Translations under genes and position numbers: made by a program
In this document: positions 3,911 through 13,267 of the stretch, piece after piece
Layout: every line of letters starts with the position of its first letter
How positions within the stretch are numbered: position 1 is the stretch's first letter
The notes under the pieces: model-generated
The model's database searches: none
What the model was told of the DNA's origin: nothing
The model's input: the letters and a program-made list of their open reading frames with translations, nothing else
IMG/VR virus record: IMGVR_UViG_3300021425_000220
Coordinates: 1 to 21,548 of that record
Length of the DNA: 21,548 bases
Direction: 5' to 3' (one strand)
Origin: a virus

Positions 3911-5551
3911 TTAATGAGTTTCTGCCCAATTGTTGCCTACTCTATATTCGCCGTCTAATGGACACCGTAGGCTGAGTGTCTCTCCGGCAAGCTTGATAGC
4001 ACGTACACCCATACGTCCAACCGTATCAGCGTAGTGTGCTGGTGTTTCTATCTGCCATTCGTCATGGACGTTAGCAACAAATTTGTGTGGTATATACAGT
4101 AACTTAGCATTCAAGATTGTCAAGGCTTCTTTCATAACAATAGCCCCAGCGCCTTGAAGCAGTGTGTTCAGTGCGGCGTGTTCTGATCTGACTCTGAGCT
4201 TTCGTCCGTCGAGTCCAGCAAGGACGCCTGATACAGCCTCTCTGTGAGTATCTCTTCTAACTCTTTCAAGAGACGGCGTGTTAGAAAGAAATGTTTCTTT
4301 AAGTCTGCGTCCAGTAACGCTATTTCCTCCAACGATAGCTCCGATCTTAGCATCTCCGGCTCCATACAGAAACGCATAAATGAATGTTTTTGCAAGAGGC
4401 CTTGTCTCAAGTCCAGCTGCTCGTTGATTAGCCGTATGAATATCGCCATTGAGGATTTCATTGGTATAGTCTTCGTCATCCATGTAGTGAGCCAGCATAC
4501 GTAGCTCTAAACCGCTGGCGTCGATGCCAACTAACTTGTTACCTTCGTCCACTGTCCAGCACGACCGACACTCTGTGCCAAACGGTGCAGACACAGCTGG
4601 TACCTGCGCCATGTTAGGTGATTGGTGTGTCATACGTCCTGTCACAGCACCGTTAGTGATGACTCTACCGTGTACTCTACCATCCTCTTTGACAGCTTTC
4701 AACCACGAGTCGATCTGTGCAACACGTTTCTGCAACATCATGTAACGTGCAACAGCTTTAGCTTCGGGTCTGTCGATACCGTCAAGCACCTTCTCATCCA
4801 CGATGATGTTACCCTTCTCAGTCTTCTTGTCAAACTTAACGCCAAGACTTTGCAGACGCTCTGCTATCTGCTTACGTGAGCCAGGGTTGAACACTGTTAC
4901 CTTGTCCTTCAGACGCTTACCTGTCTTCTCAGAGATACGTTCTTCAACGATAGGCGGAAAGATAGACTGTAGCTCTGCTTCGATGTTGTTCATCTCAAAC
5001 ATTAAATCCATCATCAACTTGTCTGCATACTCAGTGTCAAGCCTGAAGCCGTTACGTTCCTGTTCAGTCACGATCCAGCCTACACGATGCTCAAGATCAA
5101 TGGACTTTTGAGAGAAACCTTCCTTGCGTAGCTGCAACGCTAACCACTTATGAACCTGCTCGGTCAGCTCCACGTCAGCTATACAGTATCGGACCATTTC
5201 TTCAGTAAGGCCTCCATCGAAGTCTTCGAATGCAATTTTTCCATCTCCTCCAATAATTTTGCCCCAGTTTCGCAGGGAATGTCCGCCTTCTTGACTGGGG
5301 TTGTAGAGTCTGGAGAGGTATAAAGTGTCAACAACATAATGCCTAGGGATGCGTACGTTCCAAACACGATCAAGAACACCAACATCGAAGCCGATGAGAT
5401 TATGTCCGACAATTTCTTCAGCATTGTTCAACACCTTCTGTAAGGTATCTGGTGTAGTGTGAACCTGTATATCGTTCTTCACCTTCGTAACTGCACACCA
5501 GATCGTTGAGTGATCCGTAGTAGTTTCTATATCCAAGTAACAAGTATTCAT
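3911..5551 (-). CDS. Family A DNA polymerase (T7 gp5-like) with 3'-5' exonuclease domain
   Basis: Replicative polymerase, 546 residues. The proofreading domain shows ExoI YLDIETT (Asp7, Glu9), ExoII GHNLIGFD and ExoIII YCIADVELT. The polymerase domain shows motif A GIDASGLELR (Asp344), the O-helix RPLAKTFIYAFLYGAG and motif C VHDEWQ (His496, Asp497). The O-helix residue equivalent to E. coli Phe762/T7 Tyr526 is Tyr392, and the next residue is Ala where T7 has Gly. Tyr762-type phage polymerases are usually associated with lytic phages that carry a reductase. The protein is about 160 residues shorter than T7 gp5 and appears to lack the thioredoxin-binding loop. ATG 5551 is the first start after an in-frame stop at 5564-5566; its ribosome site is weak. 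Confidence 0.96.
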   Translation of the reverse strand: MNTCYLDIETTTDHSTIWCAVTKVKNDIQVHTTPDTLQKVLNNAEEIVGHNLIGFDVGVLDRVWNVRIPRHYVVDTLYLSRLYNPSQEGGHSLRNWGKIIGGDGKIAFEDFDGGLTEEMVRYCIADVELTEQVHKWLALQLRKEGFSQKSIDLEHRVGWIVTEQERNGFRLDTEYADKLMMDLMFEMNNIEAELQSIFPPIVEERISEKTGKRLKDKVTVFNPGSRKQIAERLQSLGVKFDKKTEKGNIIVDEKVLDGIDRPEAKAVARYMMLQKRVAQIDSWLKAVKEDGRVHGRVITNGAVTGRMTHQSPNMAQVPAVSAPFGTECRSCWTVDEGNKLVGIDASGLELRMLAHYMDDEDYTNEILNGDIHTANQRAAGLETRPLAKTFIYAFLYGAGDAKIGAIVGGNSVTGRRLKETFLSNTPSLERVRRDTHREAVSGVLAGLDGRKLRVRSEHAALNTLLQGAGAIVMKEALTILNAKLLYIPHKFVANVHDEWQIETPAHYADTVGRMGVRAIKLAGETLSLRCPLDGEYRVGNNWAETH

Positions 5552-5832: not shown

Positions 5833-6329
5833 TCAATCAGTTCCTTTACATCTGTCAGCTTATGCTGATCTAAAAAGTATGCGGGTCTGTTACGACCAAA
5901 AGGATCACCCCAGTTTTCCTCTTGTACTATATCATCATACGTTGCATAACCTACTACAGTATACTCAGGAAACTCCCCCACTACTAGCAAATATATCTCA
6001 CACTGATCGTGTTTCTTGTGAGGCATTACGATAAGTCTGCCTGTTCTATACTTGGTTGTCTTCACATCGACAGTTTTACCTTTGTGTATCATGTCGTATG
6101 CTGGCAACTCGTGTGCTTGAAAGTCTGTTTCAATGTCATAGTACACATTGAGTATCTTTGCTGCGGCCATTTCAGAGCCAACACCGTCAACGTCAATGTT
6201 CTTGTACGAATCCACAGTGACTACGTTTTTATCCTGCCCAAAACCTTTCTCTCTGGCATTCTCATAACGCATCTTTGCAATAGATTGACAGACCTTTTGT
6301 TCGTTCTTTCCTAGCTTATAAGATATCAT
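5829..6329 (-). CDS. Hypothetical protein with PD-(D/E)XK-nuclease-like features
   Basis: A 166-residue protein with no family name I can assign. After GVGSEMAAAKIL (conserved Glu in a helix) comes AYDMIHKGKTVDVKTTKYRTGRLIV: an Asp, then about ten residues on, D-V-K at the end of a beta strand. That is the usual spacing of the catalytic core in PD-(D/E)XK nucleases. The remainder is beta-rich and ends ELIE. I chose ATG 6329 because AGGAGA lies 6 bases upstream; an in-frame GTG at 6344 would place that Shine-Dalgarno inside the coding region. It overlaps the helicase 3' end by 14 bases and the next gene by 4. The nuclease role is inference. Confidence 0.75.
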   Translation of the reverse strand: MISYKLGKNEQKVCQSIAKMRYENAREKGFGQDKNVVTVDSYKNIDVDGVGSEMAAAKILNVYYDIETDFQAHELPAYDMIHKGKTVDVKTTKYRTGRLIVMPHKKHDQCEIYLLVVGEFPEYTVVGYATYDDIVQEENWGDPFGRNRPAYFLDQHKLTDVKELIE

Positions 6330-7944
6330 TGTGCTTCTCCTCACGCTGTGTCAGTCGTCCAGTGGCTTCATTGTAGAATACCTCACACGCCTTGCCTGTC
6401 TTGCCAGTGTACCTGTTCTTCAACACACGCAGCACGGTCGTATTTCTGACAACGGCGTCGTCACTCTGGCTGTTACGCTCAGCACCAATGACCGCATCAG
6501 ACAGCTGTGCAATCGACGCAGAGCCACGTAACATACCAAGGCTAGTCACTGCACCATCCTCCAGTTGCTTCCCTTCAGGGCGTCTCAGGTGGCTCACAAG
6601 AAACATACAAATACCCATCTCCTGTACGAACGTCCGCAGCTTAGTCATTATCATGTCCAAGGCACGTCGCTCGTCACCGTTGCTCTGGTCAGAGACCAGG
6701 ATAGAGACGTGATCGAGTACGATATAACGTACGCCTAAGACCTTGACGAAGTATCTCATACGGCCCAGTACGTTTTCTATCTCGTTACTGCCGAAGTGTT
6801 CCCACAGATACACACGGTTCTCATAGTCCATCGTATCGTAAACTAAATCAATGTCGCTGTCGTCATACTCACAGTCAGGTAAGTGTATTGGCTTGTTCAG
6901 TTCAAGCCCTACAAGGCCACGCATGGTTCGCTCAGGTGTCTCCTCAAGAAACATCAAGCCAAGGTTATCTTCAGACTGTGCCATGATGGAACTAACTATC
7001 TCACGTAGAAGCGTACTCTTACCCAGCCCTGAACCTGCACAAATAGTAACCAACTCAGACGTGCGTATGCCGTACAAGTGTTTGTTCAGTCCATCGAACG
7101 GGTACTGTACCTTCGCCTTGGTTAGTGGCTTCTTAATCAGATCGCGCAGCTCACCAGCACCAACGATACCTTCAGGTGTGTAAGGCTGAGCAGACCAGAA
7201 TGCTTTGGTGTATAGCTCTGACTGGTTGTTAACAAGGTAATCACACGCATCCTTGTAGCCGTTGACGTGCTTAACAATCCTTGCCTTGTTACCGAACAGA
7301 TCAGCACACTCCTTTGCTGCTTTCTGTCCTGGCTCGTCAGCATCGAAGCAGATAACCACATTCTCGAAGCTGTTAAGCCAATCATAAAAGAGGCGACAGT
7401 CCTTTGCCGCCGACGTTGCACCGTTACGGACACTGACAACGGGAAACTTACTACCTGTCATTTGGTGAGCCGCTAACGCATCATACTCACCTTCAACGAT
7501 AGTCACATACTTACCACCTTCAGAGAACAAGTGTTGTCCATACAAGCCAGCCTGTTTCCAATCACCAATGATACTGAACCGCTTGTCAGGGTTGCGTACC
7601 TTGGCGGCGATGGGTTTTGTCGGGTCTTCAGGGTTGTAATAACCGAATGTTGTGATGTCACCTTGCTTTAACGCTGCGTACTTCTTCGCCGTTGTTCCTG
7701 TAATTAGACGGTCAGTGATGGACCTGTACTCCGCCGTGATTAAACGGTGTTCTGTCTGGCTAAACGATGGCTTTGGTGCATCGCTGATAGAACCTAGCTC
7801 TCGTACGTTTTCCCGTACGCTACCCTTGTCGGCTGGTGTGTACGTATCACAAACAAAACACTTGCTCGAGCCGTCTTCATTATACGCTAACCCGTCGCTA
7901 CTGTCACAGTCAGGGCAAGGTTGGTGTGTTTCAGTGAAGGCCAT
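6316..7944 (-). CDS. Bifunctional DNA primase-helicase, T7 gp4-like
   Basis: Unwinds the phage fork and lays RNA primers. Counting from ATG 7944 (542 residues): a zinc-binding domain with CPDC (Cys10, Cys13) and CFVC (Cys29, Cys32), the same layout as T7 gp4A; a TOPRIM primase core with VEGEYD (Glu151) and CFDADEPG (Asp201, Asp203); then a DnaB/RecA-type helicase with Walker A GSGLGKST (Lys309), Walker B IVLDHVSIL (Asp411), the SHLRRPEG motif and the LKNRYTG arginine-finger region. ATG 7944 has AGGA/GGAG just upstream and starts right before the zinc domain, so it is preferred over an in-frame ATG at 7986 lying inside the upstream gene. It overlaps both neighbours by 14 bases. Confidence 0.95.
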   Translation of the reverse strand: MAFTETHQPCPDCDSSDGLAYNEDGSSKCFVCDTYTPADKGSVRENVRELGSISDAPKPSFSQTEHRLITAEYRSITDRLITGTTAKKYAALKQGDITTFGYYNPEDPTKPIAAKVRNPDKRFSIIGDWKQAGLYGQHLFSEGGKYVTIVEGEYDALAAHQMTGSKFPVVSVRNGATSAAKDCRLFYDWLNSFENVVICFDADEPGQKAAKECADLFGNKARIVKHVNGYKDACDYLVNNQSELYTKAFWSAQPYTPEGIVGAGELRDLIKKPLTKAKVQYPFDGLNKHLYGIRTSELVTICAGSGLGKSTLLREIVSSIMAQSEDNLGLMFLEETPERTMRGLVGLELNKPIHLPDCEYDDSDIDLVYDTMDYENRVYLWEHFGSNEIENVLGRMRYFVKVLGVRYIVLDHVSILVSDQSNGDERRALDMIMTKLRTFVQEMGICMFLVSHLRRPEGKQLEDGAVTSLGMLRGSASIAQLSDAVIGAERNSQSDDAVVRNTTVLRVLKNRYTGKTGKACEVFYNEATGRLTQREEKHNDIL

Positions 7945-8113
7945 TACGTCCTGCTCCCATGTCGCTGTACAATTCATCAATCTCACCGTCGTCCATTGTC
8001 TCTAACAACTCGGTGAAAAATCCCCCTGCAATGTTCAAAGCTTCCGTTACGGTTAACAAGTCCAACTGCCGTTCAACAAGTTCCATTATCTTCTGCTCTT
8101 TAGAGATACTCAT
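7931..8113 (-). CDS. Small acidic hypothetical protein
   Basis: A 60-residue protein, mostly helical by composition, with an acidic C-terminal half (LLETMDDGEIDELYSDMG). No motif or family recognised. Its stop overlaps the primase-helicase start by 14 bases, so it is the leader gene of the replication block and may be translationally coupled to the helicase. Upstream is an AT-rich gap of about 65 bases to the next gene; AAGG lies 9 bases before ATG 8113. Confidence 0.65.
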   Translation of the reverse strand: MSISKEQKIMELVERQLDLLTVTEALNIAGGFFTELLETMDDGEIDELYSDMGAGRNGLH

Positions 8114-10346: not shown

Positions 10347-10553
10347 GTGATGTTTCCTCGTTGTTTGTGTTGATGTGTGTAGATTGAACCTTGACATTCA
10401 TAAACACAATACCTTTTTGCAAATAATGAAACAGAAAAACATTCACGCCATGAATAGAGGTGTGTTATGCATAAGTACAGTCGAGTCTGTCGAGCTACCT
10501 ATGGGGACCAACCTAGACCCACACACCTACCCTTGTCAGTTCTATTTTGACAC

Positions 10554-10593
10554 TAACCTGTGGATAACTTTGTTGATAACCTGTGGATAACTT
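10554..10593. repeat. 17-bp direct repeat with DnaA boxes (origin candidate)
   Basis: TAACCTGTGGATAACTT occurs exactly twice (10554-10570 and 10577-10593; period 23 bases). Each copy holds TGTGGATAA, a perfect reverse complement of the DnaA box TTATCCACA (10559-10567, 10582-10590). Between them TGTTGATAA (10571-10579) is the same box with one mismatch, so three boxes in the same orientation recur every 11-12 bases, about one helical turn. A G-rich tract and an AT-rich stretch follow. The arrangement looks like a small bacterial oriC; use as a phage origin is inference. Confidence 0.75.
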
Positions 10594-10788
10594 GGGCGGG
10601 GGAGGGGCTGTGGCTGCGCTGACCGACGGCATGTCCTACCTAGACACAAAAAAGATCAAAATTGAACCTTAAAATAACCCCTAGTCATCTAACAAGAAAC
10701 AACATATAAATCAATAGGTTATGCGGTGCAGAATCTGGACCGTGCTGGTACAGTTTAAAGGACAGTAAAGTCTTATTAAAAATAATGC

Positions 10789-10817
10789 TTGACAAATCAT
10801 CAAAAGTATGGTACAAT
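10789..10817 (+). promoter_or_regulatory. Sigma70 promoter for the rightward (late) operon
   Basis: TTGACA (10789-10794), a 17-base spacer and TACAAT (10812-10817) give a near-perfect host sigma70 promoter. TG one base before the -10 (TATGGTACAAT) adds an extended -10 element. Transcription should start near 10824, leaving a leader of about 120 bases before the first gene at 10945. The spacer end GTATGG is shared with the second promoter at 16090. Confidence 0.85.
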
Positions 10818-10832
10818 AAATAGTATATTATG

Positions 10833-10930
10833 TCTTTAAAGATTCTTTACCGCGCCGTATAAGATAAATTTTATATGATAATTATTAAATGTATGTCATA
10901 TAAGCACGGTAACGAGACTTTAAAGAGTCT
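10833..10930 (+). promoter_or_regulatory. Structured 5' leader of the rightward operon
   Basis: The leader holds a 10-base perfect palindrome TCTTTAAAGA (10833-10842), a long-range stem TTACCGCGC/GCACGGTAA (10847-10855 with 10904-10912, one mismatch) around an AT-rich loop, and AGACT/AGTCT arms around TTAAAG (10915-10930) just before the ribosome site AAGAGGT. CTTTAAAGA occurs in both palindromes. It might control translation, RNA processing or protein binding; there is no match to a known riboswitch. Confidence 0.4.
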
Positions 10931-10944
10931 TATAAGAGGTATGT

Positions 10945-11334
10945 ATGTCAGATGTTGATAATCCTCCTCGCCGAAAGCGTGGAAGACCGCGTAAAAGTGA
11001 CGTTACAACAGTAAAAAAAGGTAATCGCAACGCTGTTGGTCGCCCAAAGGGTGACGCTGCAATCATTAATGAATACAAAGCACGGATGTTAGCGTCTCCA
11101 AAGTCAAGAAAAGTGCTAGATACTATCTTTGAAGCAGCTCTTGACCACGATCATAAGAATCAAGCAGCAGCGTGGAAACTTGTTATGGACAGAATACTGC
11201 CCGTTGCAGCGTTTGAAAAGGATATTGTTAAGGATGGTGGCAGAAATGCCATTCAGATTAACATTAGCGGTGTTGGTGCGGTAGATGTTGGTGAACCTAA
11301 AATTATAGAAGGTGAAGTAGTAGATGAATCTTAA
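10945..11334 (+). CDS. AT-hook DNA-binding protein, candidate small terminase subunit
   Basis: A 129-residue protein. Its basic N-terminus has a classic AT-hook, RRKRGRPRK (residues 9-17), and a second half-hook GRPKGD (32-37), both of which bind AT-rich minor grooves. The middle is helical (INEYKARMLASPKSRKVLDTIFEAALDHDHKNQAAAWKLVMDRI) and the end acidic (EPKIIEGEVVDES). Small terminase subunits of environmental podophages often look like this and lie upstream of the large subunit, as here with two genes between, so packaging-site recognition is the likeliest role; a general DNA-binding protein is the alternative. ATG 10945 follows AAGAGGT; an out-of-frame ATG lies at 10941. Confidence 0.72.
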   Translation: MSDVDNPPRRKRGRPRKSDVTTVKKGNRNAVGRPKGDAAIINEYKARMLASPKSRKVLDTIFEAALDHDHKNQAAAWKLVMDRILPVAAFEKDIVKDGGRNAIQINISGVGAVDVGEPKIIEGEVVDES

Positions 11335-11674: not shown

Positions 11675-12027
11675 TGTTATATACTAAAAACAAAAACCTA
11701 ACGGACACTTCTACGCAGACAATTGTAGAAATACCTGCTGGTTACGTAGCACATTGGAACATGGCGTTTATAGCTAACCTACACAACTCTACCAATAGCA
11801 TCACGTTGTTTGTAGACAAACCAAGTCCAACGCCTGATGTGTATATCTACAACGGCACTAACATATCGTCAAAAGAAAACCTATTGATTGACGGCAATGC
11901 AGTCTTTGTTTTACAACCGGGAGACATTATTAAAGCATCTAGTGGTAGTACCGGTAACGTAGAAGTAGTAGTTACATTTGATTTGTTAGAAGCACCATCG
12001 GTGTTCAATAATTTTAATGGATCTTAA
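11674..12027 (+). CDS. Small beta-rich hypothetical protein, possibly structural
   Basis: A 117-residue protein of alternating hydrophobic strands rich in Thr, Asn, Ser and Val (TIVEIPAGYVAHWNMAFIANLH, VEVVVTFDLLEAP), with no catalytic motif. It looks like a beta-sandwich such as a capsid decoration or fibre-tip domain, and similar proteins occur between lysis and terminase genes of environmental podophages. I chose ATG 11674, which forms TAATG with the peptidase stop; an in-frame GTG at 11662 is less likely. Its 3' end overlaps the large terminase start by 11 bases. Confidence 0.7.
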   Translation: MLYTKNKNLTDTSTQTIVEIPAGYVAHWNMAFIANLHNSTNSITLFVDKPSPTPDVYIYNGTNISSKENLLIDGNAVFVLQPGDIIKASSGSTGNVEVVVTFDLLEAPSVFNNFNGS

Positions 12028-13267
12028 TATAGAACTACTGCCTTGGCAACAAAAAGTCTGGGCAGACGACACAAGATTTAAAATAGTTGCAGCGGGACGA
12101 CGTACTGGTAAGTCCAGATTAGCTGCGTGGATGTTAATTGTTAACGCACTACAGGCAGATAAGGGTCATGTATTTTACGTCGCACCTACTCAGGGACAAG
12201 CCAGAGACATTATGTGGTCCACCCTGTTGGAACTGGGGCACCCTGTTATTAGCGGTAGTCACATTAATAATTTGCAAATTAAGCTTGTCAACGGTGCTAC
12301 CATTAGCCTAAAAGGTGCCGATAGACCAGAAACAATGCGTGGTGTTAGCCTTAAGTTCCTAGTTATGGACGAGTATGCTGACATGAAGCCAGAGGTGTTT
12401 GAGCAGATTCTTAGACCTGCGTTGGCTGACCAAAAGGGATGTGCTATGTTTATTGGTACACCTATGGGAAGGAATCACTTTTATGAGTTATACAAGTATG
12501 CAGAACTGGATGACGATCCTACGTACAAAGCTTGGCACTTTACGTCGTACGATAACCCCTTATTGGATTCGTCTGAAATTGATATTGCAAAAAGGTCTAT
12601 GTCTTCTTACGCGTTTCGCCAAGAGTTTATGGCAAGCTTTGAAGCGCGTGGGTCAGAAATGTTTAAGGAAGACTGGGTACAATTTAGTGAAGATCGGCCC
12701 GAAATAGGAGATTACTACATTGCAGTTGACTTGGCAGGATTTGAAGAAGTCAACAAGAAGAAGACTAAGAATTCCAAGCTTGACGACACAGCGATCGCCG
12801 TGGTTAAGGTCAATGAGCATGGTTGGTATGTTGACAATATTATATACGGTCGATGGTCACTTGACGAGACAGCACTTAAAATATTTCAGGCCGTTAGAGA
12901 TTACCGTCCCGTATCGGTTGGAATCGAAAGAGGTATTGCTAAACAAGCAGTAATGTCTCCTTTAATGGACATGCAGAAACGTTACGGTATGTTTTTTAGA
13001 GTAGAAGAACTAACCCATGGCAACAAGAAAAAAACAGATCGTGTTATGTGGGCGTTGCAAGGACGATTTGAAAACGGATACATAACGCTAAACAAAGGAG
13101 AGTGGAACAGTAGGTTTCTTGACCAGTTGTTTCAATTTCCAGACCCATTAACCCACGATGACTTGGTTGACGCACTAGCGTACATCGACCAGTTAGCAAA
13201 TGTGGCTTACGACTACGATTACGAAATCGAAGACCACGAAATCTTAGACGTAGTAGCAGGATACTAA
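12017..13267 (+). CDS. terL: Terminase large subunit
   Basis: The 416-residue motor that drives DNA into the capsid and cuts it. The ATPase domain has Walker A AAGRRTGKS (Lys32), Walker B FLVMDE (Asp118, Glu119) and coupling motif IGTPMG (146-151). The nuclease domain has IAVDLAG (Asp238), IERG (Glu304) and HDDLVDALAY (Asp381, Asp382, Asp385), the RNase-H-like acidic triad. The length is somewhat short for the family but every key residue is present. It starts 11 bases inside the preceding gene, and the stop is followed after one base by the portal ATG, the standard packaging-portal pair. Confidence 0.96.
   Translation: MDLNIELLPWQQKVWADDTRFKIVAAGRRTGKSRLAAWMLIVNALQADKGHVFYVAPTQGQARDIMWSTLLELGHPVISGSHINNLQIKLVNGATISLKGADRPETMRGVSLKFLVMDEYADMKPEVFEQILRPALADQKGCAMFIGTPMGRNHFYELYKYAELDDDPTYKAWHFTSYDNPLLDSSEIDIAKRSMSSYAFRQEFMASFEARGSEMFKEDWVQFSEDRPEIGDYYIAVDLAGFEEVNKKKTKNSKLDDTAIAVVKVNEHGWYVDNIIYGRWSLDETALKIFQAVRDYRPVSVGIERGIAKQAVMSPLMDMQKRYGMFFRVEELTHGNKKKTDRVMWALQGRFENGYITLNKGEWNSRFLDQLFQFPDPLTHDDLVDALAYIDQLANVAYDYDYEIEDHEILDVVAGY

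Follow-up and report, generated by a model that had tools for sequence, protein, structure and literature searches.

What would a cluster of binding sites for the host initiator DnaA be doing between the replication and packaging genes of a T7-like phage? The window (the whole stretch of DNA analysed here, a 21.5 kb IMG/VR virus record) has a leftward arm encoding a B12-type ribonucleotide reductase, a T7-type endonuclease, a 5'-3' exonuclease, a family A DNA polymerase and a T7-type primase/helicase, and a rightward arm encoding a probable small terminase subunit (TerS), a peptidase-like endolysin, the large terminase subunit (TerL), portal, scaffold, capsid and fibre. The divergent intergenic region that separates the leftward replication arm from the rightward terminase/structural arm, 10398-10944, contains tandem DnaA boxes (Table 1). 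A sequence-only reading of this locus had proposed an oriC-like replication origin. Comparison with relatives and cultured phages shows instead the anatomy of a direct terminal repeat (DTR) edge, together with a conserved, phased array of apparent DnaA specificity.

Table 1. Features of the window discussed in the text. A slash within a sequence marks a predicted DTR edge.
Feature	Position	Strand	Basis or remark
Family A DNA polymerase	3911-5551	-	Gene annotation
T7-type primase/helicase	6316-7986	-	Gene annotation
Element A, predicted right DTR edge, CCAACCT/AGACCCACACACC	10509-10532	+	Consensus of relatives C[AT]ACATAGGCTCACACACTTGTCA
Predicted DTR, 122 bp	10515-10636		Left edge by matrix; right edge by element A, less certain
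17-bp direct repeat TAACCTGTGGATAACTT, copy 1	10554-10570	+	Period 23
Perfect DnaA box TTATCCACA	10559-10567	-	Exact match
One-mismatch DnaA box TTATCAACA, probably weak	10571-10579	-	Mismatch at position 6
17-bp direct repeat TAACCTGTGGATAACTT, copy 2	10577-10593	+	Period 23
Perfect DnaA box TTATCCACA	10582-10590	-	Exact match
G tract GGGCGGGGGAGGGG	10594-10607	+	Slot alignment
Left DTR edge and packaging-cleavage motif, TGTCC/TACCTAGACACAAAAAAGATCAA	10632-10659	+	Predicted cut between 10636 and 10637
Sigma-70-like promoter TTGACA-17-TACAAT, TG ahead of -10	10789-10817	+	Points to small terminase gene
Probable small terminase subunit, AT-hook-like N-terminus	10945-11334	+	Position and conservation; PHROG match weak
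Large terminase subunit	12017-13267	+	Gene annotation

The 17-bp direct repeat is exactly as it had been described, and the two perfect boxes with a one-mismatch box between them were likewise confirmed; the three span 10559-10590, share one orientation and start at intervals of 12 and 11 bp. The middle box is probably weak because position 6 almost never varies among the near-boxes of related arrays. Across the whole window the total of perfect boxes is unremarkable (3 found, 1.1 expected). The boxes of the window do, however, cluster beyond chance. In 3000 dinucleotide shuffles, a same-orientation TTATNCACA pair within 40 bp appeared once and a same-orientation TTATCCACA pair within that distance never. 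The boxes appear to be genuine, and recruitment of host DnaA, as originally suggested, is the best reading of them, with box positions conserved in many relatives.

A search of viral contigs with the large terminase returned at least 599 relatives. Alignment of the homologous intergenic sites (slots) of relatives showed as common elements the CACAC-rich element A, an interior that varies, a G tract, some 28-29 nt of spacer and the motif GTAGC/YACYYAGACACAAAAWAGG. In the window, the predicted left-edge cleavage element consists of the G tract, about 29 nt and then TACCTAGACACAAAA. The GGGCGGGGGAGGGG tract of the window is the counterpart of the GGGGG(G)AA situated about 25 nt inside the left DTR edge of T7, Syn5, HTVC019P, Pf-WMP3 and A-4L. 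In T7, Syn5, HTVC019P and A7, GGGGG(G) is followed after about 25 nt by the DTR edge and then by TAGTCACTCAG, TACCCCTTCACAAAA, TACCCCCTCA and TACCCACTCAG, respectively. G tract and motif, which both occur with or without DnaA boxes, belong to the DTR edge. The window carries a putative cleavage motif with the G tract 24-29 nt inside it, as at the left edge of a T7-type DTR, and the site is placed as such a repeat would be, with the terminase side on one flank and the early/replication genes on the other. The DnaA boxes fall inside the predicted DTR, which is single-copy in this contig because the contig spans the concatemer junction.

A left-edge matrix derived from 62 slots, all of the marine group, was scanned blind over each cultured genome. 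In Syn5 the top score among 92,974 positions fell exactly on the DTR edge (offset zero), at 20.0 against -3.6 for the next-best site with a G run. Among sites with an upstream G run, the edge of A-4L ranked second of 326 and that of T7 fourth of 177, those of Pf-WMP3, HTVC019P and A7 fell between 14th and 24th, and the ZK1 edge was not recovered by the genome scan with this matrix. Element A is conserved within the group and resembles the right DTR edges of HTVC019P and T7. The corresponding right-edge matrix was weak in genome-wide scans and did not reliably single out known right edges (the HTVC019P edge came no higher than 66th of 84,722 and was 6 nt off), so the boundary at 10515 is less certain than the left one.

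If the segment were no terminal repeat at all but ordinary intergenic DNA or a cos site, this would agree with the contig ends of relatives, which show no pile-up at the predicted edges, and with Arthrobacter phage Seahorse, in which three DnaA boxes and, after them, a G tract (MH910041, 56388-56433) lie about 90 bp from the right record end. We regard this as quite improbable, given that the Syn5 edge was recovered at the exact base and that the order of right edge, array, G tract, 24-29 nt and left edge is common to five known DTR phages, T7, Syn5, HTVC019P, A7 and phiEap-1. Cos-type fixed ends in particular were rejected for want of any such pile-up. Exact terminal overlaps of 127 bp in G009 and 141 bp in G006 look like assembly k-mer lengths and were not counted in favour of a DTR. 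Among isolates, the closest relatives by capsid include Pf-WMP3 and A-4L of the Saffermanviridae, whose records place the DTR between leftward terminase/structural and rightward replication arms, a layout as in the window. Searched against cultured phages, the window's own intergenic region gave no meaningful nucleotide match, only AT-rich chance hits.

These edges also bear on the G-rich and AT-rich stretches that had been likened to the order of elements in small bacterial origins. Both are present, but the G tract is part of the DTR edge and the AT-rich stretch to its right is where the small terminase gene has its promoter and leader. An inverted repeat (10833-10926) with 23-nt arms, 83% complementary, and 48 nt between them also lies in this leader. 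Positions 1-60 of contig L010 repeat the start of the small terminase in reverse, probably through chimeric assembly.

Conservation of the repeat in the same intergenic region of relatives, one of the checks suggested, was seen in part. The close relative G002 has two perfect boxes in the same place as the window and many other relatives have 5-11 at the homologous site, while others have none, including the close relatives G004 and L021, which lack the array. Box density, which had also been named as a check, was scored in 70 loci that were found regardless of boxes and had both edges present. There were 103 boxes in 14.1 kb of predicted DTR and 25 in the 647.9 kb outside, roughly 190-fold denser inside. 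Two or more boxes were present in the predicted DTR of 16 loci and fewer than two in 54, i.e., about three quarters are without a DnaA array. A scan for three boxes in 11-bp register returned at least 114 further contigs; among the matches listed, roughly one in four is a member of this group (TerL identity down to 48%) and the rest are other phages. In another phage group (L119, L120, L132, L136, L139, L165, L175 and L192), whose TerL is about 24% identical, four phased DnaA boxes lie some 0.4 kb from the terminase gene; this may be a further independent case.

Among 79 one-mismatch variants of the box, the mismatch fell at position 5 in 43 and at position 3 in 23, and never at positions 2, 4 or 9; membership of the array class allowed any base at position 5, so that position 3 is the cleaner evidence. 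Variation among near-boxes thus appears confined to positions that DnaA tolerates. Same-orientation neighbours are spaced 11 bp apart in 72 pairs and 22 bp in 13. Besides DnaA boxes, the interior classes comprise 11-bp ATGCAA/RTGCCAA repeats, 12-bp TTGCATTCTGCG repeats and rarer ones. Phased ATGCAA or RTGCCAA arrays replace the boxes in L004, L006, L007, L016, L023, L065-L071 and others, and TTGCATTCTGCG arrays of 12-bp period occupy the predicted DTRs of L021, L036, L043, G006 and G007, whose replication genes are quite different. The mean autocorrelation of the non-DnaA interiors also peaks at 10-12 bp, which makes helical phasing a general feature rather than one of DnaA arrays alone.

Pairs of close relatives were informative as to what reads the array. 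L003, with 10 boxes, and L004, with none, have identical TerL (100%) and 96.4% identical TerS; L013, with 2 boxes, and L028, with none, are 99.1% identical in TerS and 99.0% in primase/helicase. Near-identical terminases and primase/helicases with differing arrays indicate that the reader is neither the terminase nor that helicase. The terminase was ruled out as reader by pairs that combine identical TerL with different arrays. A pac signal recognized by the phage terminase, its match to the DnaA box being coincidental, would suit an array placed between two DTR edges and directly upstream of the terminase genes. We give this very little weight, because completely different arrays occur at 100% TerL and 96-99% TerS identity, the variation follows DnaA tolerance, and exact consensus boxes recur across unrelated phage lineages. 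No left-arm gene tracked array class beyond multiple testing in 28 contigs, and no iteron-type initiator family was found in the left arm or beside the slot.

The slot itself outlasts exchange of the replication genes. In G006 and G007 (L212-L215), TerL is about 90% identical to that of the window and neither the polymerase nor the T7-type primase was detected; G007 has NinB, NinG and an AAA_25 protein in their place, the replication module having thus been exchanged. Both retain the slot, with G tract and left-edge motif, which argues that the slot belongs with packaging.

With a natural array as query, matches in cultured phages lay near genome ends. Cultured phages of three lineages bear boxes inside their DTRs: phiEap-1 has 5 perfect boxes in a 195-bp DTR and 2 elsewhere, A7 has 4 in 177 bp and 0 elsewhere, and ZK1 has 6 in 292 bp and 3 elsewhere. 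HTVC019P has 1 box in the DTR and 0 elsewhere, the A-4L DTR has one box, and the DTRs of T7, Syn5 and Pf-WMP3 contain none. In Berlinvirus, the DTR of A7 recurs over its full length in P483, while BA14, Kvp1 and others match at the edge only and have a different interior, the same interior exchange as in the marine group. Experimentally determined DTRs of Yersinia podophages (190-224 bp) are reported to owe their differences in length to poly-C tracts and to repeats of 10 and 12 bp (PMC5923468), which would fit a repeat-filled, fast-changing interior. Hits near record ends were also seen in the Arthrobacter phages OP434463 and PV105567, and together with Seahorse these suggest that arrays lie near the ends of non-DTR phages too. 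DnaA boxes were further noted near the record end of Vibrio phage BD1 (PV244424, 47000-47200) and about 12.6 kb from the end of Streptomyces phage Jollison (PQ184817, ~118.6 kb).

A primary oriC-like origin, at which DnaA starts genome replication in phages without their own RNA polymerase and the DTR position is incidental, must be weighed against this record. The sequence-only reading had presumed that T7-type phages start from a promoter of their own RNA polymerase, a premise that does not simply apply here, as a search of ten near-complete relatives turned up no phage RNA polymerase. That absence would favour such an origin, as would the up to 11 phased boxes in relatives, the AT-rich DNA nearby and the 11-bp head-to-tail spacing, which suits cooperative DnaA binding. 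However, the G tract and the motif that follows it are parts of the DTR edge, T7-like phages that do possess an RNA polymerase carry the array as well, and most close relatives with near-identical replication proteins are without it, in line with the 54 of 70 loci that have fewer than two boxes. The site would also be at the extreme ends of the linear virion DNA. A DnaA-trio beside the boxes is absent from the window and present in 2 of 22 relatives, and in cultured T7-like phages the boxes face the other way relative to the edge. We therefore consider the proposed origin unlikely.

Two other roles for bound DnaA were considered. The arrays might titrate DnaA, with many copies soaking up the host protein and restraining host initiation and the non-coding DTR serving as a convenient location. 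The large arrays of some relatives and the several independent occurrences would be in keeping with this, but the window holds only two perfect boxes, boxes are confined to the DTR though any intergenic site would serve, and titration leaves unexplained the other array classes of the same slot and phasing; we judge it very unlikely. DnaA is a known transcription factor, and it might alternatively time the early/late switch or act as a roadblock or repressor where the two divergent transcription units meet; a strong sigma-70-like promoter lies 150 bp rightward. This too seems rather improbable, as no predicted promoter overlaps the boxes and unrelated arrays occur in phages that share the same promoter region.

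We think it probable that the locus is a DTR at the concatemer junction with a DnaA array at which host DnaA opens the DNA for local synthesis. Host DnaA would oligomerise on the helically phased array within the terminal repeat, open the adjoining DNA and recruit a helicase, either host DnaB or the phage T7-type primase/helicase. Local synthesis at the junction would serve duplication of the DTR in concatemer processing, the start of replication, or both. In T7-type processing the single repeat at the concatemer junction must be copied for both daughter genomes, so a host initiator bound inside the repeat would supply synthesis where it is needed. The other phased 11- to 12-bp arrays of relatives would presumably bind other proteins for the same purpose. 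Against this explanation, most relatives, and T7 itself, manage without DnaA boxes, the window has no DnaA-trio, no left-arm gene follows the array class, and the opposite orientation of the boxes in A7, phiEap-1 and ZK1 argues against one fixed unwinding geometry. More tentatively, and with appreciable doubt, several T7-type lineages may have repeatedly captured DnaA in their DTRs for repeat-duplicating (or replication-restarting) synthesis, with boxless phages using other phased arrays.

To our knowledge, the mechanism of T7-type DTR duplication during concatemer processing is unsettled. A host-initiator array in the DTR of unrelated lineages, swapped among close relatives, would place a host protein at the duplication step, and this is testable in ordinary coliphages. 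Terminal repeats are well known; no description of DnaA-box arrays within them turned up in the literature library that was searched. In one Pseudomonas phage, a predicted origin with DnaA boxes is reported at 70.5 kb of a 95-kb genome, separate from its 628-bp DTRs (PMC11512268). As a practical rule, metagenome contigs of a large, uncultured group of marine phages can have their packaging edge located directly by the G tract plus the TACCYAGACACAAAA motif.

Among known systems, the bacterial oriC and its basal unwinding system resemble the window in having clustered same-orientation DnaA boxes followed by a GC-rich stretch, but the window lacks a DnaA-trio, its G tract is part of a DTR edge, and the slot is conserved even where boxes are missing. 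Plasmids such as P1, F and pSC101 have iteron origins, in which short phased repeats likewise occupy a small non-coding region and are at times accompanied by DnaA boxes; unlike these, the slot has no Rep-type initiator gene beside it, and its arrays are swapped between relatives with near-identical proteins. The DTRs of phiEap-1 (Eapunavirus), A7, P483 and nasanit (Berlinvirus) and ZK1 (Molineuxvirinae) are similar in holding an array, here of 4-6 perfect TTATCCACA boxes, by a G/C tract. These phages differ in that they encode an RNA polymerase and in box spacing, often about 21-22 bp rather than 11, and the boxes of A7, phiEap-1 and ZK1 are oppositely oriented relative to the left edge. The repeats of T7, Syn5, HTVC019P, Pf-WMP3 and A-4L are given in their records, whereas that of the window is predicted; like the window, these five have a G tract that lies some 25-29 nt inward of the left edge. 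These DTRs further share with the window a TACCC/TACCY-type motif just outside the left edge, in several cases a CACAC-rich right edge, a size of 100-350 bp, and a position between terminase and early/replication genes.
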